Origin: Algoriphagus sp. Y33
GTDB taxonomy: Bacteria; Bacteroidota; Bacteroidia; Cytophagales; Cyclobacteriaceae
Assembly: GCF_014838715.1 (NCBI RefSeq)
Contig: NZ_CP061947.1
Span: forward strand, 1,178,001-1,242,000
Direction: 5' to 3'
DNA length: 64,000 nt
Translations under genes and position numbers: made by a program
The notes under the pieces: generated by a model
What the model was told of the DNA's origin: nothing
Databases searched by the model: none
Seen by the model: the letters and a program-made list of their open reading frames with translations, nothing else
Shown: one piece after another, positions 12,189 through 45,487 of the stretch
How the letters are laid out: the number at the start of each line of letters is the position of its first letter
How positions within the stretch are numbered: position 1 is the stretch's first letter

Positions 12189-12285
12189 ATGAAATCGAGC
12201 ATGACTCAAAACGACACATATTTGAGGGGATTATCAGCCATGCGAGATTCCATATGGCATTTAAAAGTCAAATTATAGTCATATG
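12189..12285 (+). repeat. Dispersed start-codon element, copy A
   Basis: This copy begins ATGAAATCGAGCATG, has the core at 12226-12250 (GCCATGCGAGATTCC inside it), and ends TCAAATTATAGTCATATGAAA on the start codon of the 12283 lipoprotein gene. It shares this order with copies at 26324-26536 and 45371-45487. The arm before the core can pair (CTCAAA with TTTGAG), and the arm after it holds CCATATGG. Confidence 0.75.
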
Positions 12286-13161
12286 AAAAATATATTCATC
12301 CTTGTTTTGCTTTTATTTCTGATCGGTTCCTGCAATTCGACAGGAAGAAAAGCTATTGATGAGGAGGAGTTTGCTTCCCGTTGGTATCAGGGTAGAGCCG
12401 AGATCAATGTCTTTGAACTAAAACAAATGCGCTATGGAGAGGAGCGGGAAGGTGGGGCAGTGATGATTTTTGTGACGGAGGATTTTTCGAAGAGAAAGCA
12501 GGTTAAACTTGACGATCCTGCTGCTGCGGGAAAAGGAGGGATGAAGGTGATGAAGCTGAATATGATGCGTGAGTTTGTGACTGGAGTCTATCCTTACCAC
12601 ACGATGCTCTCCGTTTTCACTCCGGTGTACGACGAGTTGAGTTCTCCCAAAATCGCAGCTTCAGTTACCGAATGGTGCGGGCAGTCATTTACACAGCTCA
12701 ACTGGAAAAACAATAAGTATCAGGCCAAATTATTCTCCTATTTCGAATCGGAAGGTGATCAGGAATTGTCCATAAGCGCAAATTCTGAAGACGAGATTTT
12801 CAATTTGATCAGGCTTAATCCCGACTTGGTGCCCTCGGGCCATCTGAAATTAATTCCAAGTTTGATTTATAATCGCTTTACCCACCATCCGCTAAATGCT
12901 GAAAGTGCAATAATTTTCAAGCGTAAGACGGGTTCGAATCAGGCTGAAGTAGAAGTGATCTATGAGGAAATCGGAAGAAAATTACTCATCAACTATGTGG
13001 ATGCTTTTCCATATGAGATCATTTCTTGGCAAGAAACGGAAACCAAAGAAGACGGCACCGAAGAGGTGACCACAGCAGTTCGTAAGAGTGTCCAAATGCT
13101 GGATTATTGGAAAAAAAATCGACTTCAGGATGAATCGGCTCGTAAAAGTCTAGGACTTTGA
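12283..13161 (+). CDS. Uncharacterised lipoprotein
   Basis: The product has 292 residues. A lipobox at IGSC (Cys17) predicts a lipoprotein. The mature part includes WYQGRAEINVFELKQMRYGE and AVMIFVTEDFSKRKQVKL, a pattern I recall from a Bacteroidota family often labelled, without good reason, as septum formation inhibitor Maf. No catalytic motif is recognised. It starts at the end of dispersed element copy A and its stop overlaps the next start (TTGA). Its position between glycosyltransferase genes suggests an envelope role, which is inference. Confidence 0.75.
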   Translation: MKNIFILVLLLFLIGSCNSTGRKAIDEEEFASRWYQGRAEINVFELKQMRYGEEREGGAVMIFVTEDFSKRKQVKLDDPAAAGKGGMKVMKLNMMREFVTGVYPYHTMLSVFTPVYDELSSPKIAASVTEWCGQSFTQLNWKNNKYQAKLFSYFESEGDQELSISANSEDEIFNLIRLNPDLVPSGHLKLIPSLIYNRFTHHPLNAESAIIFKRKTGSNQAEVEVIYEEIGRKLLINYVDAFPYEIISWQETETKEDGTEEVTTAVRKSVQMLDYWKKNRLQDESARKSLGL

Positions 13162-14492
13162 AAAGGCCAGTCAGACGGGCTCTTATTCTTTTGGTTTTTC
13201 TGCTGATGACGGCAGGATTTATCTTTTTAGGCTATTTCATTCCCAGAGAAAATTTTTGGCAAACTTTTTTAGTTTTCACATTGCTTTTTGCAGGGATGAT
13301 CGTCATTTCTTTTTTGAGCATAAAGCCAAAATGGGGTTGGATTTTTGTTGCCGGAATGCTTTTTAGATATGCCTTATTGCCTTCAATTCCTAATTGGTCG
13401 GATGATTACCCCCGTTTTTTATGGGACGGAGAACTGGTGAAATTGAACCAAAATCCTTATTTGGAAACGCCCGAACAATGGCTTCAGAGCCATCCCGGAA
13501 GCTCAAATGACTATTTGGTTAATCTTTATGAAGAGATGAATTCCCCGAAGTATTTTTCGGTATATCCACCCTTGAATCAGATAATATTCTATGTTGCCGC
13601 CTGGGGCGGAAATCTGAATCAAGGATCAGGTATTGTGATTATCAGAATCGTTCTGATTTTGGGAGAAATTGGTGTTTTCTTCCTTTTATTCAAGCTTTTT
13701 GATCATTTTGAGTTCCCTGCGAATAGACTTATTTTGTATTGGTTGAATCCGTTGGTCATCATGGAAATTACCGGAAATCTTCATTTTGAAGGGTTGGTGC
13801 TGCTTCTTTTGCTTGCTTCGCTGTATGGGTTAAGCAAAAATAGGGTTGGACTTTCTGGAGGGTTTTGGGGACTTTCGATTGGGATGAAGTTGCTGCCTTT
13901 GATGCTGGTTCCTACTTTCTTTTCATTTGCGAAAACCGGAAGATCCAACCTTTTTTGGATTGGATCGGGGATTGCTGTTATTGCTGGATTTATTTGGCTT
14001 CTGATAGATAATTCCTGGGTTCATTTCTTTCAAAGTCTGAAACTCTATCAAGGCAAATTTGAATTCAACGCATCAATCTATTCCCTGCTTCGGGAAATAG
14101 GCTTTTGGGTGAAGGGTTATAACATCATCGGGGAACTGACTCCCATTCTAAGCGGGGTCGCCTTGATTGGAATCCTCTATGTCACTTGGAAAAAGAAACC
14201 TCAAAATCTCTTGCAGCTTGTGGATCTTTGGGTGTTGATTTATTTGATTTACCTGGTTTTGCAGCCGGTCGTCCATCCCTGGTATCTGATTCCGGCGTTT
14301 GGCTTGAGCTTATTCACAGATAAAAAAGCCTTCCTTATTTGGACTTTTGCAGTGATATTCTCGTACCAAGCTTATGGCAATTCCGATTACCAAGAAAATC
14401 CACTGGTTCTAGCCGTAGAATATGCACTCTTGTTTGGTGCGATATATTGGGACAATTATCTATCAAAATACAAATCGGTAACAACTACATGA
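13158..14492 (+). CDS. GT-C-like polytopic mannosyltransferase-type membrane protein
   Basis: The product has 444 residues with about ten to twelve hydrophobic helices. An acidic loop after the second or third helix, PSIPNWSDDYPRFLWDGEL, resembles the DD/DxD loop of polyprenyl-phosphate-dependent GT-C enzymes. The loop continues NQNPYLETPEQWL, also seen in PIG-M-like and DUF2029-type mannosyltransferases. The start is TTG 13158, which overlaps the upstream stop as TTGA. The next in-frame ATG would remove part of the first helix, so TTG is preferred. The stop overlaps the following ATG (ATGA). Sugar and acceptor are not determinable. Confidence 0.75.
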   Translation: MKRPVRRALILLVFLLMTAGFIFLGYFIPRENFWQTFLVFTLLFAGMIVISFLSIKPKWGWIFVAGMLFRYALLPSIPNWSDDYPRFLWDGELVKLNQNPYLETPEQWLQSHPGSSNDYLVNLYEEMNSPKYFSVYPPLNQIIFYVAAWGGNLNQGSGIVIIRIVLILGEIGVFFLLFKLFDHFEFPANRLILYWLNPLVIMEITGNLHFEGLVLLLLLASLYGLSKNRVGLSGGFWGLSIGMKLLPLMLVPTFFSFAKTGRSNLFWIGSGIAVIAGFIWLLIDNSWVHFFQSLKLYQGKFEFNASIYSLLREIGFWVKGYNIIGELTPILSGVALIGILYVTWKKKPQNLLQLVDLWVLIYLIYLVLQPVVHPWYLIPAFGLSLFTDKKAFLIWTFAVIFSYQAYGNSDYQENPLVLAVEYALLFGAIYWDNYLSKYKSVTTT

Positions 14493-15214
14493 ACCATAGA
14501 CTTATACTCTCATTTCTCTTAGTAACTCTAATTTTTTCCTGTACTCCAAGTCCGGAAAAGCAAGCTGAGAAACTTATCGAAAAGTCAATTAACGCACATG
14601 AACTTTCCAAAAAATGGGCGGATGTGGCAAGTATCAAATTCAAGAAAAAAAAACGTATACTGGATGAAAACGGAGCTGTTGATAGCGAGTACGAACAATG
14701 GTTGGAATTTCGGCTGAAGCCCTATTACGAAGGGAAAATATCGTGGGAGAAAGACAGCGTGCTTCATGTAGCCAATTTCAACGGAAGCAAGATGAGCTAT
14801 CAAATGGGTGGGAATGCAATTCAGAATGAAGGGTTTTTGAGAGCTAAAAAATCAGAAATTGATGCTGCTTATTTTGCTTTTGCGCAGCCCTGGAATCTGA
14901 TGGATGAGAATGCAAGCTTGATGTATGAAGGGCAGAAGACATTGGAGGATGGTAAAAAGGCTGAAGCTGTTCGAGCGGATTATGGTTCCGATTCGGATAT
15001 CCGGTGGTTTTATTTTGATTCGGTTTCGGCTCAGGTTGTGGCCAATGAACTTCATGACAAAAACCTTAGCTTGATTGAAAATACCTCTTACGATGAGTCA
15101 ACAGGTTTTTTATTGCCAAAAGAGCAGAAAAGTTATAGAATTGATGATGCGCGCAAGAAGATCTTTATTCAGGCGGAGTATTTATATTCTGATTATGAAG
15201 TAACTTTTGAATAA
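14489..15214 (+). CDS. DUF6503-like lipoprotein, first of two paralogues
   Basis: The product has 241 residues from ATG 14489. That start overlaps the upstream stop by four bases and immediately precedes a lipoprotein signal (LIFSC); longer in-frame upstream starts lack a signal. The N-terminal motif AEKLIEKSINAHELSKKW and the AYFAFAQPWNL segment match the next gene (AEKIVDKAIEAHGG; AYFAFLPYGLN). The pair are diverged duplicates, probably LolA-like beta structures; that fold idea is inference. Both probably sit on a membrane facing the periplasm. No enzymatic motif is seen. Confidence 0.75.
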   Translation: MNHRLILSFLLVTLIFSCTPSPEKQAEKLIEKSINAHELSKKWADVASIKFKKKKRILDENGAVDSEYEQWLEFRLKPYYEGKISWEKDSVLHVANFNGSKMSYQMGGNAIQNEGFLRAKKSEIDAAYFAFAQPWNLMDENASLMYEGQKTLEDGKKAEAVRADYGSDSDIRWFYFDSVSAQVVANELHDKNLSLIENTSYDESTGFLLPKEQKSYRIDDARKKIFIQAEYLYSDYEVTFE

Positions 15215-15244
15215 TTGAGCGTTTACCCTTTGAATATCAAACCA

Positions 15245-15988
15245 ATGAATATTAAACACTTCTTTATTTTCGTGCTTGGCCTAGCTGCTTTTTCTTGTGA
15301 GTCCCGGACTGAAGCTGAGAAAATCGTTGACAAAGCTATAGAAGCGCATGGAGGACAGGCTTACTCCAATTCGAAAATTGAGTTTGATTTCAGAAACACC
15401 CATTATACCATTTTCAAAACACCGGATAGGTTTGAGTACATCCGCGAGTTTTTGGATTCTACAGGAAATGTAATAGACGTGCTGAACAATGCCGGTTTTG
15501 TGCGGACTGTAAATGGTGCGAAAATCGATACACTTTCCGAAGAATGGATTGGAAAATATTCCCGCTCGGTCAATTCGGTGGCTTATTTTGCTTTTCTTCC
15601 TTATGGGCTCAATGATCCTTCCGTTTTCAAAACTTCCCTGGGCGAAACAGAAATCAATGGGAAGAACTATGACTTGATCAAAGTGACTTTTGCCGAGGAA
15701 GGCGGAGGGGAGGATTTTGACGATGAGTTTTTGTACTGGATAGGTGCCGATGATTCGATTGTGGATTTCATGGCTTATAGCTACCATACGGATGGCGGAG
15801 GTGTGCGGATGAGAGAAGTAGGCACTGTAAACGAGGTGGGGGGAATTCGCTTTCAAAACTACCTAAATCTAAAGCCGGTGGATGAGTCGGTTCCTGTAGA
15901 GAAAATGCAGGCTTTGTACGAATCCGGTGAGTTAGAGCTGCTTTCGGAGATAAACTTGGAGAATATTAAGGTTGAACCGTTGAAATAA
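15245..15988 (+). CDS. DUF6503 family lipoprotein, second paralogue
   Basis: The product has 247 residues from ATG 15245. A TTG ten codons upstream is in frame, but the ATG starts directly at the lipoprotein signal (AAFSC). Characteristic pieces are AEKIVDKAIEAHGGQ, YSRSVNSVAYFAFLPYGLND, VTFAEEGGGEDFDDEFLYWI and MAYSYHTDGGGVRMRE, which fit DUF6503 as I recall it. It lies 30 bases after its paralogue and 10 bases before the hydrolase-OsmC gene, so it is probably in the same transcript. Function unknown. Confidence 0.82.
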   Translation: MNIKHFFIFVLGLAAFSCESRTEAEKIVDKAIEAHGGQAYSNSKIEFDFRNTHYTIFKTPDRFEYIREFLDSTGNVIDVLNNAGFVRTVNGAKIDTLSEEWIGKYSRSVNSVAYFAFLPYGLNDPSVFKTSLGETEINGKNYDLIKVTFAEEGGGEDFDDEFLYWIGADDSIVDFMAYSYHTDGGGVRMREVGTVNEVGGIRFQNYLNLKPVDESVPVEKMQALYESGELELLSEINLENIKVEPLK

Positions 15989-15998
15989 TTAATCAAAA

Positions 15999-17216
15999 AT
16001 GAACCCAAAACGACTGACATTTACCAATAGAAATGGCCATGAGCTGGCGGCACACCTCTATCTGCCTGCTGATCAAAAGCCGCATTTTTTTGCGATTTTT
16101 GCGCATTGCTTCACCTGCTCCAAAAACTTCTCGGCTGTCACCCGAATTTGTACTGCACTTTCCCAAAATGGAATAGCTGCATTAAGTTTCGATTTCACAG
16201 GGCTAGGGATGAGTGAAGGAGAATTCGCCGACTCAACTTTTACTGGTAATGTGAGTGATTTACTGGATGCGGCCGATTTCCTAACCAGAGAATATCAATC
16301 TCCCAAAATGCTCATCGGCCATTCGCTTGGAGGCGCAGCGGTGTTATATGCGGCAGCTGAGATAAGTGAAGTAGAAGCCGTTGTAACTATTGCTGCGCCT
16401 GCATTCCCGGCGCATGTCCGCCATTTGTTCGTGGATAGTATTGAGGAAATAGAGAAAAGCGGAAGTGCAAAAGTTAAAATTGGCGGCCGTCCATTTCATA
16501 TCAGCAAGAGCTTTGTGGATGATTTGGAGCAGAAACCCTTGGCTACTTTTCTGAAAAAGCTGAAGAAGTCTCTACTCATCATGCATTCTCCCCAGGATGA
16601 AATCGTGGAAATCAGTAATGCTGCGGAGATTTACAGTGCGGCTTTTCATCCGAAAAGTTTTATCTCATTAGATGGTGCCAATCATTTGGTATCAGATCCC
16701 AAAGACAGCGAATACATCGCTGAGGTGATTGGAAGCTGGAGCAAACGCTATGTGATAGTAAATGAGGAAAAGCAGTCTAATGATACCCAAGGGAATCAGG
16801 TTTTCGTGAGACTTTCGGGAGAGAAATACACCACGGAAGTGATGACACCAAATCACCATTTGATTGCGGATGAGCCGGCTGACCTTGGAGGGGATGATCT
16901 GGGACCCAATCCATATGACTTGCTGATGGCTTCACTGGGAAGTTGCACCGCAATGACTTTGAAGATGTATGCAGATCGGAAAAAGTGGCCTTTGAAGGAA
17001 GTTTCCGTCTTTCTGAACCATGAGAAAGTTCACTTGTCTGACAGTGCCCATCCTGAAGAAAACACTGCAAAAGTCAGTCAATTTACCCGAATTATAGAAA
17101 TCGAAGGGGAACTGGATGCAGAGCAAAGACAGAAACTGTTGGAGATTTCCAATAAGTGCCCTGTGCATCGCACACTGCAGGAGGAGATTATTATTCAAAC
17201 CATGTTGGCAAAGTGA
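15999..17216 (+). CDS. Bifunctional alpha/beta hydrolase-OsmC protein
   Basis: The product has 405 residues in two domains. Residues about 1-250 are an alpha/beta hydrolase with nucleophile motif GHSLGG (Ser109), a His in GANHLVSDP near the domain end, and an acidic residue likely in SPQDEIVEI. Residues about 265-405 are an OsmC/Ohr-type domain with a Cys in SLGSCTAMTLKMYADRK and a second in NKCPVHRTL; these two cysteines reduce organic hydroperoxides in the family. The fused form is known across several phyla. The last four bases (GTGA) overlap the start of the next gene. Confidence 0.92.
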   Translation: MNPKRLTFTNRNGHELAAHLYLPADQKPHFFAIFAHCFTCSKNFSAVTRICTALSQNGIAALSFDFTGLGMSEGEFADSTFTGNVSDLLDAADFLTREYQSPKMLIGHSLGGAAVLYAAAEISEVEAVVTIAAPAFPAHVRHLFVDSIEEIEKSGSAKVKIGGRPFHISKSFVDDLEQKPLATFLKKLKKSLLIMHSPQDEIVEISNAAEIYSAAFHPKSFISLDGANHLVSDPKDSEYIAEVIGSWSKRYVIVNEEKQSNDTQGNQVFVRLSGEKYTTEVMTPNHHLIADEPADLGGDDLGPNPYDLLMASLGSCTAMTLKMYADRKKWPLKEVSVFLNHEKVHLSDSAHPEENTAKVSQFTRIIEIEGELDAEQRQKLLEISNKCPVHRTLQEEIIIQTMLAK

Positions 17217-18253
17217 AAAGGAAACGGTCAAGGGATTACTTGCTGAGCTCAGTTCTGATTATGCTAGGACTGGTGTTATGGGCAATATTTCCCTTACAAC
17301 GGGACTTAATCACCGCTTCTGAAAAATGGAAAGGAGTGTGTTGGGTGGGAAGCAGGTCGCCACTTTTGGGGACGGAACTGGAGGTATTGAAGGCAACAGG
17401 AGCCAATGCAATTTCCCAAACACCTTTTGGCTGGCAGAATGAAAAGAATACTCCTGAGATCCGCTGGGATATGCATAATGAAAACAAATGGTGGGGAGAA
17501 TCTTCAGTAGGGATTAAAGCAACGTTTGATTCTTCTGCCCGTCATGGGATTATGAATATGCTCAAGCCGCACCTATGGGTTCGCGGGAGTTGGCCGGGTG
17601 AAATAGTCATGAAAAGCGAGGAGGATTGGAAGCTGTGGTTTGAGAATTACGGGGGTTTTATTCTGGATTATGCTAAAATGGCCGAGGAGCATCAAATCCC
17701 CATGCTCTGCGTGGGCACTGAACTGGAATTGACCTCTGCACGTGAAGAAGACTGGAGAAAAGTGATTGCGGAAATCCGAAAAGTCTATTCCGGTAAGTTA
17801 GTTTACGCAGCAAATTTCACTGAATTTGAGCATGTGAAATTTTGGGATGCACTGGATTACATTGGAATTCAGGCGTATTTTCCTCTCTCTTCAAAGGCTG
17901 ATCCAAAGCTTGCAGACCTCAAAGCCGGCTGGAAAAAGCATCTACCAAAAATCGAAAAACTAGTCTCCGAGAGCAAAAAGCCGGTGATATTTACTGAGAT
18001 TGGTTACTGCAACACTGTGGACGCAGCCATGGAACCTTGGGTTTGGCCAAATGAGCGAAAGGAAACTGAACTTTCCGAAGAAATGCAGGCACTTTGCTAT
18101 GAGGCGTTTTTTGAAACAGCATGGCAAAAGAGCTGGATGGCCGGTGTGTTTTTCTGGAAATGGTATCCGGAGGGGAAGCATCGTGAGCCTGATTTTACCC
18201 CGCAGGGAAAAATGGCTGAGCAGGTGATGCGTAATTATTTTTTAGCTGACTGA
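17213..18253 (+). CDS. GH113-like glycoside hydrolase, membrane-anchored
   Basis: The product has 346 residues from GTG 17213. This start gives a basic stretch followed by one hydrophobic segment (YLLSSVLIMLGLVLWAIF) and a GTGA overlap with the upstream stop. The rest is a TIM barrel with likely acid/base Glu in CVGTELELTSAREEDW and nucleophile Glu in PVIFTEIGYCNT, both at barrel strand ends as in GH113 beta-mannanases. DYIGIQAYFPLS is also typical. Its place behind a mannan-synthase-like GT2 resembles the pairing of BcsA with an endoglucanase. Substrate is inference. Confidence 0.82.
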   Translation: MKRKRSRDYLLSSVLIMLGLVLWAIFPLQRDLITASEKWKGVCWVGSRSPLLGTELEVLKATGANAISQTPFGWQNEKNTPEIRWDMHNENKWWGESSVGIKATFDSSARHGIMNMLKPHLWVRGSWPGEIVMKSEEDWKLWFENYGGFILDYAKMAEEHQIPMLCVGTELELTSAREEDWRKVIAEIRKVYSGKLVYAANFTEFEHVKFWDALDYIGIQAYFPLSSKADPKLADLKAGWKKHLPKIEKLVSESKKPVIFTEIGYCNTVDAAMEPWVWPNERKETELSEEMQALCYEAFFETAWQKSWMAGVFFWKWYPEGKHREPDFTPQGKMAEQVMRNYFLAD

Positions 18254-18319
18254 AACTTAGTGGATTCCAAACGCATAGCGACGAAGCAACTTTTGGTCAT
18301 CCCTGTCTCACAATGGCGG

Positions 18320-18347
18320 GTCTTCCAGCCATTAAGGCAAGGAAGAC
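18320..18347. other. Hairpin in the gap after the GH113-like gene
   Basis: GTCTTCC (18320-18326) pairs with GGAAGAC (18341-18347), and an inner GCC/GGC extends the stem. No U-run follows on either strand, so a terminator is uncertain. Nearby bases (GCGACGAAGCAAC, GTCTCACAATGGCG) look like a decayed copy of the dispersed palindrome family seen in the array at 11.4 kb. Confidence 0.4.
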
Positions 18348-18446
18348 ATAGCTACTAATGTTATTGCAGATAATCATATTTTATTTATAAGGTACCGTTA
18401 CTTTTTGTATTTTTTTATTAATTAGCTAAGACAATAGATCATAGCT

Positions 18447-19859
18447 ATGAAAAATAACCAGAGAAGAGCGTTTCTGAAATCTACCGGCCTGGTAGGTTTG
18501 GGGCTTTTTGGAGCGGGCAATACTCTCGCCAATGAATTTGATAACCTGCCTTTCCAAGCGAAAAACGGAGTAAATCGAATCCAATCTTTTAATATGAGCG
18601 GTTTTTCAGCTCCTAAAATCGATACTGTCCGGGTAGGGATAGTGGGACTTGGGATGAGAGGCCCGGGAGCTGTTGATCGATTGAGTAAAATAGAGAATGT
18701 AGAGATAAAGGCGCTTTGTGACTTGATTCCTGAGCGGGTGGATAAGGCAAAGTCCCAGTTGAAGGATACACCGCATCAGCCTGACGGTTATTCCGGTAAT
18801 GCTTATGCATTTAAGGAAATGATGGATCGGAATGATTTGGATCTGATCTATATCGCCACACCTTGGGAATGGCACACTCCAATGGCGGTTTATGCCATGG
18901 AAGCAGACAAGCATGTTGCCTGTGAGGTACCTATTGCCATTACAGTAGAAGAGTGCTGGCAATTGGTGGAGACTTCTGAGCGTACCAAGAAGCATTGTAT
19001 GCAGCTGGAGAATTGCTGCTATGATTTCTTTGAATTGATGACGTTAAAAATGGCCCGTGAAGGCTATTTTGGCGAAGTGGTACATGTGGAAGGAGCTTAT
19101 ATTCATGATTTGTTGGCGCTGAATTTCAATAAGGAAAATGGCTATCAGGATATGTGGAGGCTTAAAGAGAACTACCGGAACGGTAATTTATATGCCACCC
19201 ATGGACTAGGGCCTATTTGTCAAATCCTGAATGTCAACAGAGGAGACCGGATGGATTATTTGACCTCTACCTCATCCAATGATTTTTCCATGCATGCAGA
19301 GGCCAAGAAATTGGCTGAACAGGATAATTTTTTTGCTTCCTATGCTACAAAGAAATTCCGTGGGAACATGAATACTACAATGGTAAAAACGAAGAACGGC
19401 AAAAGTATCATGATTCAGCATGATGTGTCTTCCCCGCGTCCATATTCCAGACTTCATGTAGTAAGTGGTACGGAAGGATATGCACAAAAATATCCGGAAC
19501 CGAGAGTTGCCAAAGGACACGGTTGGCTCAAGGATGAGGAGTTCAAGGATTTGGAAACCAAGTACACACCCGAGATTATCCAGAAGGTGGGAGAGCTGGC
19601 CAAAAAAGTAGGGGGCCATGGAGGCATGGACTTTATGATGGACTGGCGATTGATAGACTGTCTTAGAAATGGACTTCCTCTGGATCAGGATGTGTATGAT
19701 GCGGCTCTTTGGAGCTGTATTTCTCCGCTTAGCGAATGGTCAGTGGCTAATAGGTCCAATGCTATTGATGTGCCTGATTTCACGGGGGGGAGCTGGAAAA
19801 CAAATGCGCCGGTGGATATCACACTGAACGGTGGCGGAACGACCGGTGTGAGAGTGTGA
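18447..19859 (+). CDS. Gfo/Idh/MocA oxidoreductase, GH109 type
   Basis: The product has 470 residues. The N-terminus NNQRRAFLKSTGLVGLGLFG is a twin-arginine-like export signal, so it likely folds with its cofactor before export. The Rossmann domain has VGIVGLGMRGPGAV. The middle carries IATPWEWHTPMAVYAME, CEVPIAITVEECW and NGNLYATHGLGPI, strongly resembling GH109 enzymes, which use NAD in a retaining mechanism on alpha-N-acetylgalactosaminides. The Tyr/His catalytic region is in place. It stands alone with a terminator after it. Family assignment is strong; the sugar actually cleaved is not certain because many close homologues are untested. Confidence 0.9.
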   Translation: MKNNQRRAFLKSTGLVGLGLFGAGNTLANEFDNLPFQAKNGVNRIQSFNMSGFSAPKIDTVRVGIVGLGMRGPGAVDRLSKIENVEIKALCDLIPERVDKAKSQLKDTPHQPDGYSGNAYAFKEMMDRNDLDLIYIATPWEWHTPMAVYAMEADKHVACEVPIAITVEECWQLVETSERTKKHCMQLENCCYDFFELMTLKMAREGYFGEVVHVEGAYIHDLLALNFNKENGYQDMWRLKENYRNGNLYATHGLGPICQILNVNRGDRMDYLTSTSSNDFSMHAEAKKLAEQDNFFASYATKKFRGNMNTTMVKTKNGKSIMIQHDVSSPRPYSRLHVVSGTEGYAQKYPEPRVAKGHGWLKDEEFKDLETKYTPEIIQKVGELAKKVGGHGGMDFMMDWRLIDCLRNGLPLDQDVYDAALWSCISPLSEWSVANRSNAIDVPDFTGGSWKTNAPVDITLNGGGTTGVRV

Positions 19860-19952
19860 TTTGGGTTTAGTTGAATAAAACTAGTTGCCTATTGTTGTAT
19901 TGCGTTATGCGACCATATAGTTCTGAAATAGGTGATTGTGCTAACATTGGTG

Positions 19953-19993: not shown

Positions 19994-20009
19994 GGTGTGA
20001 AATAAAGTC

Positions 20010-25764: not shown

Positions 25765-26327
25765 AGAATAACTACCCTAAGGCTCATGGCTCCATGCGCA
25801 CCCACTACCAGTGATTGTTCAATGTCTGCAGTCTTGGAAGGGCCTGCGATAAATACCCCGAAACCGGAATTTGTAGATCCTATGCGTTGGTAAGCTTCAT
25901 GCATGTTTCCCACTATATTATTCTGCTTGATGACGATCACCAAATGTGCTGTGATAAAGGGAATTGCTCTCAGATCCAAATTGCTTTCGTCCAGCCAAAT
26001 AGCCGCATTCTCTGCCGAAGCAAATTGGCCTTCGATAATCGCCAGATCCAGATCTGAAAAATCAGCGGGATGCACGGGTAATGGGCAATTGGTGAAATGT
26101 CCGAATTCAGGAGCAGAGCTATAGATTTTTGTGAAGGCCGTTTCTGCGATCATCTGCTCAATTTCTTCCTTGCCCACTACAATTCCTTTGTTGGCATTCA
26201 AAGAACGGGTGTAAGTGCCTACAAGATCAGTTGAAACGTCGAAATCAGGGATGTCCGGAAGGGGTTTTTCTTCCATGTTTAATTCTTTGATAGCGGCTAA
26301 TATGGATGGTTTACTACTTGTTTTCAT
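25761..26327 (-). CDS. lutC: Lactate utilisation protein C (LUD domain)
   Basis: The product has 188 residues forming a single LUD domain (DUF162), as in LutC of the three-part L-lactate oxidase. Conserved pieces are DLAIIEGQFASAENAAIWLD, FITAHLVIVI and GFGVFIAGPSKTADIEQSLVVGAHG. It lacks cysteine clusters, as expected. It lies after lutB and ends the rhamnose/lactate operon. Its start codon is the last codon of a tandem pair of dispersed elements, and the frame is open upstream into the nearer copy, so an extended N-terminus cannot be fully excluded; MKTSSK fits the usual family start. Confidence 0.9.
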   Translation of the reverse strand: MKTSSKPSILAAIKELNMEEKPLPDIPDFDVSTDLVGTYTRSLNANKGIVVGKEEIEQMIAETAFTKIYSSAPEFGHFTNCPLPVHPADFSDLDLAIIEGQFASAENAAIWLDESNLDLRAIPFITAHLVIVIKQNNIVGNMHEAYQRIGSTNSGFGVFIAGPSKTADIEQSLVVGAHGAMSLRVVIL

Positions 26328-26536
26328 GTGTTTATAATTTGATTTCCAATGGTCATACGGAATCTCGCATGGCTTATAATCATCCCAGTGTGCGTCGCTC
26401 TCGACATGCTCGATTTCATGTGTTTATAATTTGTTTTTTAAAGGCCACATGCCCGTCCCATCCGCCGCGGATCGGGAGAATCTCGCAGGTTTTATAATCA
26501 TCCCAGTGTGTGAGGTTTTGCCTCATGCTCGATTTC
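26324..26536 (-). repeat. Dispersed start-codon element, tandem copies B1 and B2
   Basis: Two copies fill the lutB-lutC gap: B1 at about 26325-26419 and B2 at about 26417-26536, with cores at 26360-26386 and 26478-26504. The minus strand reads GGATGATTATAAGCCATGCG in the B1 core and ends AAATTATAAACACATGAAA in both copies. Flanking arms differ yet stay pairable: TGAGG/CCTCA before the B2 core, GTCG/CGAC before the B1 core, and a strong TCCC..ATCCG/CGGAT..GGGA hairpin after the B2 core. Two tiny ORFs, 26416-26526 (36 residues) and 26324-26419 (31 residues), are linked by ATGA overlaps to lutB, to each other and to lutC. They are not called as genes because their frames are not conserved between copies. 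Confidence 0.8.
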
Positions 26537-27887
26537 TATTGTTTTTATACCAAACTTTAAATGACTCGGAGGGTAATTCCGGTAGGTTTCTGCCTTTTCC
26601 CCAGGCATTTAATGGGTTGTAAATAACACTGTCAGGCAATGTCTTTAAGGACGCTCTCATCATTTTACCTGAAATCCTGTAAGCGAGAGGACTTTTGAAA
26701 ATTCCGTTCGCCAATTTCATAGACAAGCCCTTCAGGGATAAACCCTGTGCTTTTGTGATTTCTTGTCTCCATTCGTAAAGCTGCTCGTGAATGTTGATTT
26801 TTACCGGACAGACATCCGAGCAGCTGCCGCATAGCGTGGAGGCAAAAGGCAGTGTGCTGTGTTTTTTCAGATCTATTCCGGGAGAAAGTATAGATCCAAT
26901 AGGTCCGGGAACAGTACTTCCATAACTGAATCCACCGCTTCGGCGATAGATAGGGCAGGTGTTCATACATGCTCCACAACGGATGCACTTCAGTGAGTTT
27001 CTGAACTTCTCCCGGGCAAGTTGCTTTGTTCTGCCGTTGTTGACCAAGATCAGATGAAGTTCTTTTCCTGGAGACGGGCTTCTGAAATGTGAATTGTAAT
27101 TCGTAATGGACTGCCCGGTAGCAGATCTGGCCAGGAGCCGAAGGAACACCCCCAAGTCTTTTCGCCTTGGGATAAGTTTCTCTATTCCCATGCAGGCAAT
27201 ATGCGTGTCTGCCAGATGCACCCCCATGTCGGCATTGCCTTCATTGGTACATACGACGAATTCTCCCGTCTCTGCCACCGCAAAATTGACCCCGGTGATG
27301 GCTACCTTGGCTTGGAGAAACTTTTCCCGGAGGTGCATACGTGCTGCATGCGTAAGGTAAACGGGGTCAACATTTCCTCTTTCGGTTTGTAGTTTTTCGT
27401 GAAAAATCTCGGAGATATCGGACTTTTTCAAGTGAATGGCCGGCATCACGATATGACTTGGCGGCTGCTTGAGAAACTGGATAATCCGTTCTCCCAAATC
27501 GGTATCTACAACCTCAATGCCTTTCTCTTCTAAGTAAGGATTCAAATTACATTCTTCGGTCAGGATAGATTTACTTTTGACGATGGCTTTGCATTTTTTT
27601 TCATCCAGAATTTTTCCAATGATCTCATTGTGCTCCTGTGCATCTTCAGCCCAGTGGACTTTTATGCCATTTGCGGTTGCATTTTTTTCCAGTTCTTCGA
27701 GATAGAAGTCAAGTTTGGAAAGTGTGTGATCTTTGATTTGGGATGCCAGTTCACGCAGTTTTTCCCATTCAGGGATTTGATGGATGGTTAGGTCACGCTT
27801 TTGGCGTACAATCCAGAGTGTATCGTCATGCCATTTGGCACGGGCTTTATCTTTTAGGAATACCGTTGCATTCTCCGGATGACTCAT
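26523..27887 (-). CDS. lutB: Lactate utilisation iron-sulfur protein B
   Basis: The product has 454 residues. ATG 27887 is chosen because it overlaps the lutA stop (ATGA); the long upstream extension in this frame is an arginine/cysteine-rich shadow of lutA. Residues about 60-300 form the LUD domain (FAVAETGEFVVCTNEGNADMG). Two ferredoxin motifs follow: CIRCGACMNTCPIYRRSGG near residue 305 and LCGSCSDVCPVKI near residue 355. With LutA and LutC it oxidises L-lactate to pyruvate. Its last codons and stop lie inside dispersed element copy B2. The identification is secure. Confidence 0.95.
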   Translation of the reverse strand: MSHPENATVFLKDKARAKWHDDTLWIVRQKRDLTIHQIPEWEKLRELASQIKDHTLSKLDFYLEELEKNATANGIKVHWAEDAQEHNEIIGKILDEKKCKAIVKSKSILTEECNLNPYLEEKGIEVVDTDLGERIIQFLKQPPSHIVMPAIHLKKSDISEIFHEKLQTERGNVDPVYLTHAARMHLREKFLQAKVAITGVNFAVAETGEFVVCTNEGNADMGVHLADTHIACMGIEKLIPRRKDLGVFLRLLARSATGQSITNYNSHFRSPSPGKELHLILVNNGRTKQLAREKFRNSLKCIRCGACMNTCPIYRRSGGFSYGSTVPGPIGSILSPGIDLKKHSTLPFASTLCGSCSDVCPVKINIHEQLYEWRQEITKAQGLSLKGLSMKLANGIFKSPLAYRISGKMMRASLKTLPDSVIYNPLNAWGKGRNLPELPSESFKVWYKNNRNRA

Positions 27888-39031: not shown

Positions 39032-39155
39032 GTAAATAGGAGGGGTGAGGATATCGCTACCAAATTTAACAGAAGTATTTTAATGCAGATGTTATCCTAT
39101 CAAATTAAATAAAAGTCTTTGTTTTACTGTAATTTTGATCAAACCATGACATATT

Positions 39156-39524
39156 ATGAAATTTAACAGAATCTTTTTCGGACTATGGATTTTCATCTTT
39201 GCGCTTTTTGCTTATTGGCAATTCAATGATCCTGATCCAGAGGTCTGGGTGAGTATTTATGGGGTGGCTATGTTGTTTTGCCTGATGGGGTCCCGTGGGA
39301 TTTTCCCTAAGATCCCGCTTACTGTGGTGGTGGTGGCATGTTTGCTAGGTTCTGTTTACTTTTATCCAGGGGGAATAGGCGATTGGATCGCGCAAGAGGT
39401 GGAGCAGCAAGATCTTACTATGAAAACACCCCAAATGGAGGAAGCACGTGAGACTTTTGGACTTTTGATTGTGGCTTTGGTACTAAGTCCGGCACTTTGG
39501 AAAGCCTGGAGCAATAAGGGTTAG
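39156..39524 (+). CDS. TMEM220-like small membrane protein
   Basis: The product has 122 residues and four predicted membrane helices. The N-terminal signature AYWQFNDPDPEVWVSIYGVAM is characteristic of the TMEM220 family, which is shared by bacteria and animals and has no known function. The gene precedes the NIPSNAP gene by 89 bases in the same direction. Confidence 0.85.
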   Translation: MKFNRIFFGLWIFIFALFAYWQFNDPDPEVWVSIYGVAMLFCLMGSRGIFPKIPLTVVVVACLLGSVYFYPGGIGDWIAQEVEQQDLTMKTPQMEEARETFGLLIVALVLSPALWKAWSNKG

Positions 39525-39613
39525 ACGCAGCTAAAACGAGATTGAGCGAGATTAATTTACCTTACATTTAAATAGCTACTCTTCAGGTGCTGTTTTCAAC
39601 AAACCCAATAACC

Positions 39614-40363
39614 ATGAAAAAATTAATGCTAACCATGTTTGCCTTACTCTTCGCCTTTTCAGGCTTTTCGCAACAACTAATTGGAAGTAATTCTACCTAT
39701 TTTGAAATACGAAAGTACTACGCCAATGAAGGCAAACTTCCGGATTTGATCAAGCGCTTTGAGGAGCACACGATGGCTCTTTTTGAGAAAAACGGCATGG
39801 AAAATATAGCCTATTTTATTCCTGTAGACAATACGGATAATTCCCTGACTTATATTCTCGGCTATCCTGATGAAAAATCCCGTGATCGTACGTGGGAGAA
39901 ATTTTCAAATGACCCCGAATGGAAGAAAGCAAAGAAAGAATCCGAAGTGAATGGCGGATTGGTAAAAAGTGTGGATCAGACTTTTATGAAATTGGCAAAG
40001 GGATTGAATGATACTCAAAAGCCACGGGAGGGTGGTGTTTTTCAATTGAGGACCTATACCTGCTTTGATGGCAGACTGGACAATCTAATCACACGCTTCA
40101 GGAATCATACACAGGATCTTTTCGAAAAACAGGGATTAAGAAATTACCCCTATTGGATAACTGTTGAGAAGGATGGAAGCCAGTCAAAGCTGGTTTATCT
40201 CTTGGCAGATAAGGACCAGGCCTCTTTTGAAAGGAATTTTCAGAATTTCATCAAAGATCCCGCCTGGGTAAAAGCCCGTAATGCATCTGAGTCAGATGGT
40301 AAGATTGTAGAAAAGGTAGATGCAGTGTTTTTTAAGCCCCTGCCTTTTTCACCCCTAAAGTAA
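39614..40363 (+). CDS. Secreted double NIPSNAP-domain protein
   Basis: The product has 249 residues from ATG 39614; nine upstream in-frame codons lack signal character. The signal peptide ends FSGFSQQ. Two NIPSNAP (dimeric ferredoxin-like) domains follow: about residues 28-130 (YFEIRKYYANEGKLPDLIKR) and 140-245 (VFQLRTYTCFDGRLDNLITR). Each carries a repeat of the form (P/Y)xxFxxNxxxFxKDPxW near its end. The family is common in Bacteroidota secretomes; its role is undefined. Confidence 0.88.
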   Translation: MKKLMLTMFALLFAFSGFSQQLIGSNSTYFEIRKYYANEGKLPDLIKRFEEHTMALFEKNGMENIAYFIPVDNTDNSLTYILGYPDEKSRDRTWEKFSNDPEWKKAKKESEVNGGLVKSVDQTFMKLAKGLNDTQKPREGGVFQLRTYTCFDGRLDNLITRFRNHTQDLFEKQGLRNYPYWITVEKDGSQSKLVYLLADKDQASFERNFQNFIKDPAWVKARNASESDGKIVEKVDAVFFKPLPFSPLK

Positions 40364-40607
40364 CCTATATAAAATGAGCTGGTTAATTCGTGATAAGCCG
40401 ATAATCAGTCAGCTGAGCTGTAGCACACAGACGTCTGCAGTCTTGGTATAAATCCAAGTTTTTAACGAGCCGATTTATTGTATAAAAAATTCCTTTTATC
40501 CAATCTTTCTAAATCTGTTATTAGCTCAAATTGAATCCAAGAGCTTGTTTCTTGTTTCTAAAATCTTGATACTAGCTAATACTTCAAACAGAAAACCTTT
40601 GTTAAAA

Positions 40608-40639
40608 AAAATCCAACCCCGGAATCAGGGTTGGATTTT
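40608..40639 (-). terminator. Intrinsic terminator of the ThuA-domain gene
   Basis: A 12-bp perfect stem (AAAATCCAACCC at 40608-40619, GGGTTGGATTTT at 40628-40639) with an 8-base loop. On the minus strand the stem runs into eight T residues, and it lies 22 bases past the stop at 40661. Confidence 0.85.
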
Positions 40640-40660
40640 CTGATTTATTCGGTACAAGTA

Positions 40661-43600
40661 TTACTTAGCGTTAAAGGTCAATCCTGCTAGAATAAATGTG
40701 CCTGCTTCCCCACCTTTAATGGTTTTCGTGGTGATATACAATTTGTGAACCTTGCCATCTGCTTGGCCTGTCACAGGAATTGTCAGCATCTCAAAGGCAG
40801 GTGCCCCCGGAGGTCCGTTCATTGGACCCTGGATATATTCCTTGCTTCCTACGATTTGCCCATCAGGACTGTCCAGTCTTAGCTCAAACAGAAAACCATC
40901 TGTTAGCTTGGCAGTGGCAGCGGTATTCAATGTCACTGATACAATATCTGTTAGATCTACTCTGGAGACAGCAAATGATGCGGGATCCGCAGGAACCGTC
41001 AATAGGTTGGTTCCTCCATAAGTTATTTTGCTATAGCCCCCTGTAAGTTCCACTGCTGTCCCTAGATCAATGGTGTTACTGGATAGTATATAAGAAGAAG
41101 AACCCGTCAACGGCTTAATACCTTCCCCACCTTTATCTGTATAGGAGGCACTGATCATCAGCACGCCAGTGGGAGTCGTTGATTTACCCATGGTCGGATC
41201 CACTTTTCCAGAACTAGGAAGGCTCTCTTGGGAGACTTCATCCAGCGAAAGGATATAGCTGATCAAGGCATTTAATTCGGATTCCGGCAAATCGGGGTTG
41301 GCAGGCATAACTGTTTCTCCCCAAACTCCGCCTCCGCCATTTCTGATTTTGTTTTTCAGGTAATCTATATCCTTTTCAGTATACTTTTTGGCTACACTTG
41401 TATAGTCAGGTCCTATGGAAGCTTCTGCTTCCTTGTGACATGTCTTGCAGGTTAGAGAAGAGACCAGTGATTTCCCAACCATGGCATCAGTCATGATTTT
41501 ATGGCCTTGATTGGCTTCAGCCTGATCGAATCCTTCCACGTAATCAGCACTGACGAATAGGTTGTCCATGTCATTTGCAGCATCGGAATGATCTTCATCG
41601 GTCACAGTGACTTGATAAGTGACTTGCTTACCAGGGAAATAGAATGCCTTATTACCTTTTATGGCAATGCTTACTTCAGGGGCGATGTTGCCTGAATAAA
41701 CCGAGACGGGGATTCCTTTGCCTTTCAGACCGGCTGGATCAGTGGCTGTCACGGTGACAGCGTATTCTCCCACGGTAGTAAATGTATGCGTAAGCGTAGG
41801 CTCTTCGGTAGTTTTGGATTCCCCGTTGCCAAGATCCCAAGTATAGGAAATAGGATCGCCTTCCGGGTCTGATGCTTCAGCAGTGAAAGTAGCGGTCAAG
41901 GGATTGGTTCCTGATGTCTTATCCACAGTGATTTCTGTAACTACAGGCGCTCTATTGCCTCCATTGTAATCAATGCGGAATAGACCGGAATCTGCATTTT
42001 TGGAGAACCAGCCATTTCCATATTCTAATCCATATATATGTCCGTCAGGCCCCATTTCCATGTCGATGAGTGCATTGAATTTGGTGTTTGGCATAAATGG
42101 ATCCATTTTGTCGTAATCTCCGGATTCCGTCATGGTCACGAGCTTGATCCAACCCCTAACCCAATCATAGATGATTAATTTACCGTCAAAATAGTCAGGC
42201 AATTTACTGTCACCGGAGTACATGTCAGAATAATAAATAGGACCAACCATCGCATTTCTACCGCCGGTACCCAAAGTAGGGAACTCTGCAGATTCTCCAT
42301 AAGGGTACCAGATGAACGCCGGCTGAGTAGGAGGCAATACTTCAATACCGGTGTTGTGTGGAGATTTGTTTTTCGGTCCATTAATGTCGTAAAGCTCTCC
42401 TGAAGTACCATTGGAATAATCGTACTCACGGTAGGGGTAGTTATCGGCGATCACATATGGCCAACCAAAGTTGCCTGCTTCACGTGCCTGGTTAATTTCA
42501 TCGTACCCTCGTGGTCCACGGGTATCGGTGCTATCACCGCTGGCATCAGGCCCCACTTCACCCCAATATAAGAAGCCTGTCTTCTGATCCACAGATATTC
42601 TATAGGGATTTCTGAGACCTTGAGTATATATTTCAGGTTTGGTGCCTTCTGTTCCGGCAGCATATAAATTCCCATTTGGGATTTCATATGATCCGTCTTC
42701 TTTTACCTTGATTCTAAGTATTTTGCCCCGAAGGTCATCTGCATTGCCTGAGCTTCTTCTGGCATCAAACTGCTTGTTTCCCTCTCTGGCATCCAATGGC
42801 GCATAGCCGCTGGTTACATAGGGAGTATTAGACTGGTTGAATGGAGTGGAATTATCCCCTGTAGACAGAAATAGATTTCCATCTGCATCGAAGGCAATTG
42901 ATCCTCCGGTGTGGCAGCATATTTCTCTTTGGGAGTAAAGTTCCAGAATGATTTGTTCTGAGTTCATGTCCCAAATTCCCTCTTTGAATTTGAATCTGGA
43001 GAGGCGGTTGACTTCCTTAGCCGTAGGTGAGTAAAATACATACACCCAGTTGTTGTTAGCATAATTGGGGTCTCGCTGAAGACCTAAGACACCTTCTTCA
43101 GCATTTACGCCTTGTACGGATGTTTTCCAGTACACATCCAGCTTAGCTACTTCGGAAGTCTCTTTAGTTTGGCTATTGTAGAGCAGGATCTCTCCTCTTC
43201 TTTGCGCTACAAGAATATCCAAATTGGGCAATATTGTCAATTCCGTAGGTTCGGTGAATTCTCCTACAGCCAACATGGTTTTTTCAAATCTGTTTTCCTC
43301 AGGTACTTTCTTACTCTTGGCTTTTGAATAATCCGGTTCCTGATTATTTCCAATTGCATATTCAATCCCGGCTAAGAGATGCTTTAAGAAAAGTTCTTCG
43401 GTAAATGATTCGTTGGTATGACCACCTCCTGTATAAAAAGCCCGGCCTCCATCGTAGTCATGATACCAAGCGATTGGATGCTCGCCCATATCCAATCCTC
43501 CTTGGTAAGAGTCTTCATCCAAAGTCAGGAGAACATTTACCTTGGGATTCATTTTTTGATAGGAATACCACTCATCAGTTCTCTCCCAAGGAGATGGAAG

Positions 43601-44101
43601 AAAAGATGTAGCATCATTGTCCGCATCCACCACAGTGACTTTTCCGGATTGCACATTTGGATGAGGATCGTTGATCCCAGGATGATCGCTGAAATACCCA
43701 CCCACCAGACGATTGTACCAGCCCCAGTGATATTCTGTGTCCGCCGCGGCGTGGATTCCTACAAAGCCTCCTCCGGACTGGATATAACGCTCAAATTCTG
43801 CTTCCTGCACATGATCGAGCACGTCTCCTGTGGTACTGAGAAAAATCACAGATGCATACTGAGAAAGGTTTTCCTCGTTGAAACTAGCACCTTGGGTAGT
43901 TGTGTCTACTTCAAAGTTGTTTTCTGACCCTAATTTTTTTATTGCTTCGATTCCTTTAGGAATAGATTCGTGGTAAAATCCTGCTGTTTTGCTGAATACA
44001 AGTACTTTAGGTTTTCCGGAGCGGGAATTACAGCTCCAGAAACCTACACTCGCCATCAATCCAAGCAGCAGTAGGCTTCTTAGGTTTTTTGAGAAATTCA
44101 T
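40661..44101 (-). CDS. ThuA - PQQ-type sugar dehydrogenase - PKD - cytochrome c lipoprotein
   Basis: The product has 1146 residues and is a lipoprotein (FWSC near residue 24). Domains in order: ThuA-like glutamine-amidotransferase fold, about 30-250 (VLVFSKTAGFYHESIPKGIEA; GGGFVGIHAAADTEYHWGWY). A soluble glucose-dehydrogenase-like six-bladed propeller, about 270-700 (LREICCHTGGSIAFDADGNLFLS region; GLRNPYRISVD). A PKD domain, about 715-800 (SYTWDLGNGE). A class I cytochrome c, about 870-960, with haem motif CKTCH near residue 886 and a downstream Met in VMPANPDLP. A CBM6-like C-terminus follows. The order suggests sugar oxidation with electrons passed to the attached haem. Substrate unknown. 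Confidence 0.9.
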   Translation of the reverse strand: MNFSKNLRSLLLLGLMASVGFWSCNSRSGKPKVLVFSKTAGFYHESIPKGIEAIKKLGSENNFEVDTTTQGASFNEENLSQYASVIFLSTTGDVLDHVQEAEFERYIQSGGGFVGIHAAADTEYHWGWYNRLVGGYFSDHPGINDPHPNVQSGKVTVVDADNDATSFLPSPWERTDEWYSYQKMNPKVNVLLTLDEDSYQGGLDMGEHPIAWYHDYDGGRAFYTGGGHTNESFTEELFLKHLLAGIEYAIGNNQEPDYSKAKSKKVPEENRFEKTMLAVGEFTEPTELTILPNLDILVAQRRGEILLYNSQTKETSEVAKLDVYWKTSVQGVNAEEGVLGLQRDPNYANNNWVYVFYSPTAKEVNRLSRFKFKEGIWDMNSEQIILELYSQREICCHTGGSIAFDADGNLFLSTGDNSTPFNQSNTPYVTSGYAPLDAREGNKQFDARRSSGNADDLRGKILRIKVKEDGSYEIPNGNLYAAGTEGTKPEIYTQGLRNPYRISVDQKTGFLYWGEVGPDASGDSTDTRGPRGYDEINQAREAGNFGWPYVIADNYPYREYDYSNGTSGELYDINGPKNKSPHNTGIEVLPPTQPAFIWYPYGESAEFPTLGTGGRNAMVGPIYYSDMYSGDSKLPDYFDGKLIIYDWVRGWIKLVTMTESGDYDKMDPFMPNTKFNALIDMEMGPDGHIYGLEYGNGWFSKNADSGLFRIDYNGGNRAPVVTEITVDKTSGTNPLTATFTAEASDPEGDPISYTWDLGNGESKTTEEPTLTHTFTTVGEYAVTVTATDPAGLKGKGIPVSVYSGNIAPEVSIAIKGNKAFYFPGKQVTYQVTVTDEDHSDAANDMDNLFVSADYVEGFDQAEANQGHKIMTDAMVGKSLVSSLTCKTCHKEAEASIGPDYTSVAKKYTEKDIDYLKNKIRNGGGGVWGETVMPANPDLPESELNALISYILSLDEVSQESLPSSGKVDPTMGKSTTPTGVLMISASYTDKGGEGIKPLTGSSSYILSSNTIDLGTAVELTGGYSKITYGGTNLLTVPADPASFAVSRVDLTDIVSVTLNTAATAKLTDGFLFELRLDSPDGQIVGSKEYIQGPMNGPPGAPAFEMLTIPVTGQADGKVHKLYITTKTIKGGEAGTFILAGLTFNAK

Positions 44102-44227
44102 AGGTTTTAAATTTTGGGAAAATAGGTAATTAAACTCAATTCAGAGTTTCCTTTACAAATTGGGGATTTTTTTGATAAAAATTATATAAAATGTCTTTTT
44201 GAAACAATAGATAATGCAATTAGGTGG

Positions 44228-45373
44228 TTATTCCAGAATTCTGGCTCCTTCGGAAAGTGCAACTGGAATAAAATCGGCTTCTATTTTGAAGGATTGCTTA
44301 TAGACAGAGAACATCTCTGATTTGAAATACTCCAACTGAGCATTGGAAACCAAGTTGATCGTACAGCCTCCAAATCCCCCACCCATCATTCTGGATCCTA
44401 TGACTCCTGGCAGAATCCATGATTGCTCCGCAAGGAAATCAAGTTCCGGACAGCTAACTTCAAAGTCTTTGCTCAGGCTTCTATGAGATGCTTTCAGTAA
44501 ATTTCCAAAGGCGGCTAAGTCTCCTGCATGAAGTGCATTTGAAGCCAAATTTACCCGGTCTATCTCAGTGATGACATGTTTTGCCTTAGGGTAAAGCTCA
44601 GTAGATAGGATCTGCTCTACCTTTTCAAGCTCTTTCACAGGAATATCTCTGAGTGTGGTAACATCAGGATAAGTAGCCCGAAGAATCTTCACACTTGCTT
44701 CGCAAGCCTCTCTTCTCTTGTTATAGGCTGAGTCGGCAAGGTTATGCTTTACTTTGGAATTAATAAGTACGAGGGAGTGATCACCAAAATCAACCTCAAC
44801 CTCAAAGTGTGTATTGCTACGGCAATCCAGCAGCAACGCTCGGTCTTTTACCCCAAAAGCGGAGGCATAGGGATCCATTATACCACATTTCACTCCAGCG
44901 AACAGATGCTCGGCCTTTTGTGCGTAGAGAACGATTGATTTTTTGGTGATGGTAAGTTTGAATAATTCTGTGAGTGCAGTGCCGATTGCCACAGAAAGTG
45001 CAGCAGAGGAGGAAAGTCCAGAAGCAGGGATGTTTCCTCCAAATACCAGATCAAATCCTTCCAACTTATAACCGGCTTGCTGAAGCTGTGATACTACCCC
45101 CATCGTGTAGTTTGCCCAGTGTCCTTTTTTGGGAGAGAAGGAGTTGATATCAAAAACGAACTCTTCCTTAAAATCCTCTGAATAGAGCCTACAAGAAGGA
45201 AGTTTGTTTTTTTGGATTGCCACCCAGATCCCTTGTTCTATTGCGGCGGGGAAAACTAAACCTTCCTGATAGTCTGTGTGCTCACCGATTAAATTTATTC
45301 TTCCGGGTGAGAAGGCCAAAATAGGTTCACTGGCAAAAAACTCTTGGAAAGTTTGGCCAATTTTATCTTTCAT
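44228..45373 (-). CDS. galK: Galactokinase
   Basis: The product has 381 residues of GHMP kinase fold. Signatures are SPGRINLIGEHTDYQEGLVF (galactose site), IPASGLSSSAALSVAIGTAL (ATP loop) and GSRMMGGGFGGCTINLV (motif 3). It phosphorylates galactose at C1 in the Leloir pathway. It is downstream of a LacI-type regulator in the same direction. Its start codon is the last codon of dispersed element copy C. No galT, galE or galM is in the window. Confidence 0.95.
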   Translation of the reverse strand: MKDKIGQTFQEFFASEPILAFSPGRINLIGEHTDYQEGLVFPAAIEQGIWVAIQKNKLPSCRLYSEDFKEEFVFDINSFSPKKGHWANYTMGVVSQLQQAGYKLEGFDLVFGGNIPASGLSSSAALSVAIGTALTELFKLTITKKSIVLYAQKAEHLFAGVKCGIMDPYASAFGVKDRALLLDCRSNTHFEVEVDFGDHSLVLINSKVKHNLADSAYNKRREACEASVKILRATYPDVTTLRDIPVKELEKVEQILSTELYPKAKHVITEIDRVNLASNALHAGDLAAFGNLLKASHRSLSKDFEVSCPELDFLAEQSWILPGVIGSRMMGGGFGGCTINLVSNAQLEYFKSEMFSVYKQSFKIEADFIPVALSEGARILE

Positions 45374-45487
45374 GTGTTTTTATAATTGATTTTTATCAAC
45401 TACCCCGATTAGTCGGGGCTGGCTGTTGAATCTCGAATGGCCAATAATCATCCTACTGTGTGCCGTTTGTATCATGCATGATTTCAC
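45371..45487 (-). repeat. Dispersed start-codon element, copy C
   Basis: This copy lies between the LacI regulator and galK. On the minus strand it reads GTGAAATCATGCATG, the core at 45428-45454 (GGATGATTATTGGCCATTCG), a hairpin CAAC..CCCCGA-CTAA-TCGGGG..GTTG, then AATTATAAAAACACATGAAA at the galK start. Order and spacing match copies A, B1 and B2, with a different but pairable arm. Confidence 0.75.

Follow-up and report, generated by a model that had tools for sequence, protein, structure and literature searches.

A dispersed structured repeat that targets start codons in Algoriphagus and its relatives

Introduction

The IS110 bridge RNA carries a guide for base pairing with the joined ends of its own element as well as with the target, HEARO/IscB elements are inserted next to ATGA or GTGA, and integron attC sites act as recombination sites in the form of a folded single strand and lie in head-to-tail arrays. 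PMC6006769 describes short internal guides of IS200/IS605 elements that pair with the flanking target and the right end, a short guide beside the hairpin that is required for REP cleavage, and atypical structures in Bacteroidetes beside subclass 2.6 genes, with copies elsewhere in the genome. Here we describe a repeat of about 93 nt that occurs in a stretch of 64,000 nucleotides of the Algoriphagus sp. Y33 genome (contig NZ_CP061947.1, positions 1,178,001 to 1,242,000; the whole stretch is called the window, and strain Y33 the host). Literature searches found no description of this repeat family.

A sequence-only reading of the window had pointed to four copies at three loci, sharing one order of parts and ending at the start of lutC, galK or a lipoprotein gene, and had compared them to a structured RNA or a mobile translation-start cassette. 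Direct reading and alignment confirmed the copies, the loci and the order. We find that the copies belong to a real, widespread and recently active family of start-codon-targeting structured repeats, whose behaviour resembles that of a small non-autonomous element that uses guide pairing. The cassette part of the comparison fits the identical copies, the empty sites and the retained start codon reported below; these results do not establish an RNA regulatory role.

Results

The core pattern of the repeat, allowing up to two mismatches, had 143 matches in the 6.38 Mb host genome, while the reversed pattern had none, so the core is not a product of chance. The host contains at least 150 copies. 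All 150 candidates scored with a covariance model built from 23 copies were matched, and the host counts given here rest on 149 of them. Twelve of the 149 copies are identical over 84 nt and form a single group, indicating that the element moved recently; the others differ.

The search of family genomes with a covariance model, put forward as a check in the sequence-only reading, returned many copies. The first model (R1) matched in 56 of 72 genomes of the genus, and the second (R2) in 58 of 118 genomes of the family, host included. Among 247 genomes of the phylum, R2 matched in 15. Seven of these lie within the family (four of them in the genus), another six share its class, and two come from different classes. 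The copies outside the family (8 of the 247 genomes) are diverged, and in several of these genomes a single match lies close to the threshold; 13 matches were found in G345 and three in G400. Copy numbers per genome are lower bounds, as the number of candidates scored in each genome was capped. The models were built from subsets of copies, and the distant copies found with R2 lean towards the structure of R2. Among the matches listed, named contigs with model matches come from Algoriphagus, Belliella, Cyclobacterium, Lunatibacter, Lunatimonas and uncultured relatives, the model having been applied to 80 of 120 loci. From 119 model matches in named loci, 96 were used and 23 (at most 39.5 bits) omitted, and one tandem copy found by pattern in L230 was added. 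Pattern matches in three Winogradskyella contigs and one deltaproteobacterial contig had no model match and were dropped as chance.

Fifteen of the 16 element-free genomes of the genus are small, with 2.2-2.8 Mb (G002, G003, G005, G007, G008, G011, G012, G013, G020, G027, G058, G072, G079, G091 and G092), and the remaining one, G063, has 4.3 Mb. Y1 transposases are still present in several of the small ones. Copies were also seen in two species before what is apparently the same gene, whose protein begins MKGRVIKSTGSWYLV: G062 has a tandem pair (L349, G062:C5:163000-163500) and the host a single decayed copy (L171, C1:5910500-5915500), which suggests either shared descent or repeated hits on one target.

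The insertion site was read from relatives that lack the element. The joined flanks aligned across the site in all 31 comparisons kept, which cover 7 loci (the third window locus, 1190189, and nine galK relatives at a greater distance are treated apart). The empty site was ATGAA in 27 of the 31, in five of these after the gap had been slid by eye, TTGAA in one, and neither in three. At locus 1190189, two relatives have ATGAAA, with a left flank of only about 27 nt. Filled loci carry ATGAA(A) on both sides of the element, and empty loci a single ATGAA, normally the start codon. The gene thus keeps its start codon at the right end of the element, and ATGAA(A) is left at both junctions. With ATGAA twice in filled and once in empty sites, a target-site duplication and a shared exchange core look alike. 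In all 11 copies in which the right sixth letter is not A, the left sixth letter is A, indicating that this left letter is part of the element and that the exchange takes place within ATGAA. The right end of a distant copy (L390) reads ATGAT, which suggests that ATGA is enough as a target. Neighbouring copies in tandem have one ATGAAA in common, which is what insertion of a new copy into the right end of an existing one would produce, and tandem arrays also give the junction of right end and left end, CAN'ATGAAATCGAGC.

The sequence-only reading had asked whether copies cluster at start codons, and this is what we found. The right end runs into another copy in 25 of 149 cases, and a reading frame of 60 codons or more begins at 94 of the remaining 124 (of the 30 counted as without a gene, at least two run into another copy that was missed by the tandem rule). 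For comparison, the sampled DNA contains 604 ATGAAA sites outside elements, and 133 of these open such a frame. Some exceptions lie away from gene starts; in G009, for example, a copy sits over the 3' end of a Y1 gene in antisense orientation. These cases indicate that the element reads sequence and not the gene, and that the survival of harmless insertions must add to the start-codon enrichment.

The element reads ATGAAAT at its left end and CANATGAA at its right end. RNAalifold on 23 copies gave a long helix, P1, between the left end and an internal stretch (AATC-GA-GCATG / CATGC-GA-GATT), in which the left end pairs with CATGCGAGATT, and a hairpin, hp1, enclosed by P1. Next to P1, an internal CATNTG is complementary to the right end CAN'ATG, start codon included; this is P3. 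In the main type, one internal segment (GATT-C-CATNTG) is therefore complementary both to the left end, including the flanking ATG, and to the right end. The RNA fold of a young copy consists of P1, hp1 and P3.

The variable letters N and N' form a pair in 101 of 145 host copies (57 G-C, 25 A-T, 15 C-G and 4 G-U; 4 of 149 copies were unparsed), compared with a mean of 66 and a maximum of 83 in 10,000 shuffles. Copies of the named contigs gave the same picture, with 76 of 96 paired (shuffled mean 40, maximum 59; 1 of 97 unparsed). After collapse at 85% identity, 67 of 102 copies were paired (shuffled mean 40.4, maximum 55 of 5,000), and after collapse at 75% identity the excess among the 14 copies left was weak (9 paired versus 5.6, maximum 11). 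In the distant G345, N and N' were complementary in 9 of 10 copies read by eye, and P3 shows two exchanged pairs, in L373 (CATCAG/CTGATG) and in L383 (CATCCG/CGGATG).

Covariation was assessed on copies of 97-101 nt only (144 of 246), in an alignment of 106 rows and in a set of 91 rows from which 15, decayed or with other P1 arms, had been dropped by eye. On 91 rows, 93.0% of the helix cells were paired and in 84 cells both sides had changed, compared with a shuffled mean of 31.5 and none of 500 shuffles as high. On 106 rows, hp1 was 78.2% paired (shuffled mean 60.6, maximum 65.8 of 500) with 51 both-side cells (mean 20.7, maximum 30), and P3 was 94.8% paired (shuffled 88.7, maximum 90.7) with 41 both-side cells (15.2, maximum 26). 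Compensatory changes, whose lack would have spoken for an inert repeat according to the sequence-only reading, thus exceed those in shuffles. Other types of the element have different P1 arms that still pair, AATGCCC/GGGCATT, AATACCC/GGGTATT, AACCTAGCATG/CATGCTAGGTT, AACATCCC/GGGATGTT and AACGAGCAT/ATGCGAGTT. Support for P1 comes from such arms, as judged from the sequences, and not from the statistics within the main type. A second type, largely missed by R1, was seen at L008, L098, L109 and L261; it carries a long pair of arms (CGATTAAAAT...ATTTTAATCG), and its guide and right end are unchanged.

The copies of the window are given in window coordinates, which for model matches are host genome coordinates minus 1178000. 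Copy 1 (12189..12289, plus strand) shows the complete anatomy. The P1 arms, AATCGAGCATG and CATGCGAGATT, lie at 12193..12203 and 12239..12249, and the internal CATATG at 12251..12256 is complementary to the right-end CATATG at 12280..12285, which includes the start codon. A 292-aa open reading frame (ORF) starts at the right-end ATG (12283). The protein has no Pfam match, and its start looks like a lipoprotein signal, in line with the gene named earlier. Just upstream of copy 1, at 11376-12180, a unit of 215-243 nt is repeated three to four times; arrays of a unit of about 7 letters (CAAGTAG/CAAGAGT-like) are found in the same region and at 49056-49085 and 58394-58488.

Copies 2 and 3, both on the minus strand at 26.3-26.5 kb, stand head to tail with one ATGAAAT common to both. 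Copy 2 (26413..26538) comes first, and its left junction is TAGAAA. A LutB-like frame upstream of it enters the element, its stop being a TGA inside the copy (26523-26538). Copy 2 has hp1 at 26511..26525 (TGAGGCAAAACCTCA), an optional extra hairpin at 26456..26477 (TCCCGATCCGCGGCGGATGGGA), and an internal CATGTG at 26446..26451 that is complementary to its own right end, CACATG, at 26417-26422. Copy 3 (26321..26419) has its P1 arms at 26405-26415 (5' arm) and 26361..26371 (3' arm, CATGCGAGATT), and its internal CGTATG at 26354..26359 pairs imperfectly (one A-C mismatch, one G-U) with the right end CACATG at 26325-26330. Its right-end ATG at 26327 starts a LUD-domain (LutC-like) gene, again as anticipated.

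Copy 4 (45367..45487, minus strand) is decayed. It has GTGAAA at the left junction and an optional extra hairpin at 45403..45419 (GCCCCGACTAATCGGGG), and its right-end ATG at 45373 starts the galactokinase gene expected from the galK assignment. The pairing arms quoted in the sequence-only reading all exist, TGAGG/CCTCA and GTCG/CGAC as hp1, and CCCCGA and ATCCG in optional extra hairpins, whereas the helices P1 and P3 had been missed.

Discussion

The results show the repeat, about 93 nt long, to be a dispersed non-autonomous element that has moved recently and inserts in ATGAA, usually the start codon and the second codon. We consider it fairly probable that its structure serves its mobilisation. 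The internal segment would be a splint or guide: its pairings with the left end in P1 and with the right end in P3, one letter apart, would bring the ends of the element into close proximity. Once joined, these ends (CAN'ATGAAATC) would be complementary to the internal segment over its full length. The left flanking ATG could replace the right-end ATG in this pairing, so that the same segment could recognise the target ATGAA, and the splint may thus serve circularisation as well as target choice. Excision and insertion would proceed as a single strand, probably DNA, with an enzyme supplied in trans; we infer the step from pairing to enzyme. Single-stranded DNA is the probable mobile form because IS200/IS605 and REP elements with short guides work in this way, as described in PMC6006769. 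The clustering at start codons would follow from a target that contains ATGA, together with the survival of those insertions that restore the start codon. A tentative extension, which we hold to be possible though doubtful, is a Bacteroidota-wide class of self-guided mobile elements, in which an internal splint pairs with both ends and with the ATGA of start codons and so picks and rebuilds start codons.

Several results weigh against the mobile reading. The N-N' pair is an A-G mismatch in 19 of 145 host copies, a sizeable subfamily which indicates that the pair is not essential, and A-C in 12 of 145. P1 hardly varies in the main type and shows no excess there, with 93.6% paired versus 93.3 in shuffles (maximum 94.1) and 5 both-side cells (2.1, maximum 7). 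Folding energies were unremarkable in four of six copies (single-copy RNA z-scores of -0.82, 0.10, 0.86, -0.53, -3.41 and -2.22; DNA was also folded), and the results as a whole fit DNA and RNA alike. Three relatives at locus 440613 lack ATGAA at the site, and in the nine more distant galK relatives (about 67-71% identical) a sequence other than ATGAA often occupies the site. Loss of the ATG is commoner on the left (25 of 149 copies) than on the right (4 of 149), a bias that selection on the gene start explains too, so that either junction may carry the element's own ATG. Finally, searches of carrying genomes for the Y1, TnpB and reverse transcriptase families revealed no mobilising enzyme, and scans for left ends without a nearby right end, made in the loci and not in the whole genome, revealed no autonomous form.

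Y1 transposases occur in 52 of 59 genomes of the genus, with six in the host; the three host Y1 genes that were inspected with their flanks have other palindromes beside them. G014 and G059 have no Y1 genes, yet 106 and 48 matches, but two neighbouring copies in G014 hardly differ over their first two thirds. The ten copies read in each of these two genomes (two rows were mislocated) are mostly diverged, the best pairs being 89% and 83% identical over the first 90 letters. These data speak neither for nor against Y1 as the mobilising enzyme. TnpB (PF07282) was found in 4 of 72 genomes of the genus and not in the host, and does not track the copies. Reverse transcriptase (PF00078) was found in 23 of the 72, including the host with two matches, is absent in the copy-rich G062, G082 and G071, and tracks the copies poorly. 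The left ends without a nearby right end turned out to be decayed copies, right-end variants, false matches and, in one case, a copy with an IS110-type gene inserted in it. The latter lies at L096 (host C1:86332-90500, minus strand), where an IS110-type transposase gene (Pfam Transposase_20) directly follows the left part of a copy interrupted at GATTATAAACC, and a second, complete copy stands just beyond the gene.

The insertions may be tolerated through ribosomes that begin at the old start, translate across the element and initiate again at the new start, with selection keeping the frame open. In 77 of 142 distinct copies, the frame of the left ATG stays open as far as the right ATG, compared with 32 and 2 in the other frames (the frame with 2 begins with TGA), and a through-frame is open in 84 of 149 copies compared with a mean of 33.9 when the interiors are shuffled. 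The copies share descent, however, and are not independent, and 65 of the 142 have an earlier stop. We therefore regard re-initiation as an unlikely explanation of the element; it concerns tolerance and not movement, and is compatible with a mobile element.

It is distinctly unlikely that the repeat is mainly a cis-acting messenger RNA (mRNA) element, in which P3 covers the start codon, P1 and hp1 modulate, and insertions put genes under shared control. The frequent frames at the right ends, the covariation of a P3 that includes the start codon, and the fold of the young copy into P1, hp1 and P3 would all agree with such a role. However, N and N' pair in 68 of 92 copies before genes, in 19 of 30 without a gene and in 14 of 23 that run into another copy. 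Pairing is thus not clearly better before genes, which, with these small counts, suits a structure for moving rather than for regulation. We see no clear sign of post-insertion selection for regulation. Moreover, copies stand before unrelated genes, in tandem and, in G009, antisense at the end of a gene, and the empty sites show that the genes exist without the element.

An inert repeat dispersed by ordinary recombination or gene conversion, with chance pairing, would agree with the single identical group among otherwise differing copies, but is very improbable in view of the exact junctions at unrelated genes, the empty sites, and the complementary changes in hp1, in P3 and between P1 types.

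Few positions in a gene are as sensitive as its start codon. A mobile element that lands on a start codon and returns it would explain how about 100 gene-start copies can exist in one genome, and the end-to-end pairing offers a concrete handle for finding the mobilising enzyme. For annotation, the insertions alter gene starts, leaders and operon links, and create short spurious reading frames.

The tests run do not place the family in REP, IS200/IS605, classical miniature inverted-repeat transposable elements (MITEs) or an Rfam family. Rfam 15 gave no match in the window, and six loci searched at E up to 10 gave 8 matches, each far below the gathering score. The terminal inverted repeats of classical MITEs are absent, as the ends pair with an internal segment and not with each other. 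The element differs from attC in letters and layout. Unlike IS110, it contains no transposase, and an IS110-type gene was met once, as an insertion into a copy, with no survey of that family. Unlike HEARO/IscB, the tested copies have no Rfam match, and no nuclease gene was found (IscB itself was not searched for).

The similarities to REP/REPIN sequences with TnpA-REP (RAYT) and to IS200/IS605 are closer. Like REP/REPIN, the repeats are small, high-copy, non-autonomous and structured. They differ in their length of about 93 nt, their two-part structure with a pairing segment inside and their target ATGAA; the ends pair with this internal segment instead of forming one palindrome, no linked TnpA gene was found, and the REP foot (a GTAG-type tetranucleotide 5' of one short palindrome) is absent in the element sequences and alignments. 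No Y1 gene lies inside or beside the copies examined, except for the G009 copy at the 3' end of a Y1 gene, on the other strand. As in IS200/IS605 elements and their non-autonomous derivatives, the insertion point is fixed by sequence; in those elements a separate subterminal hairpin and guide serve each end, whereas in the present repeat a single internal segment pairs with both.

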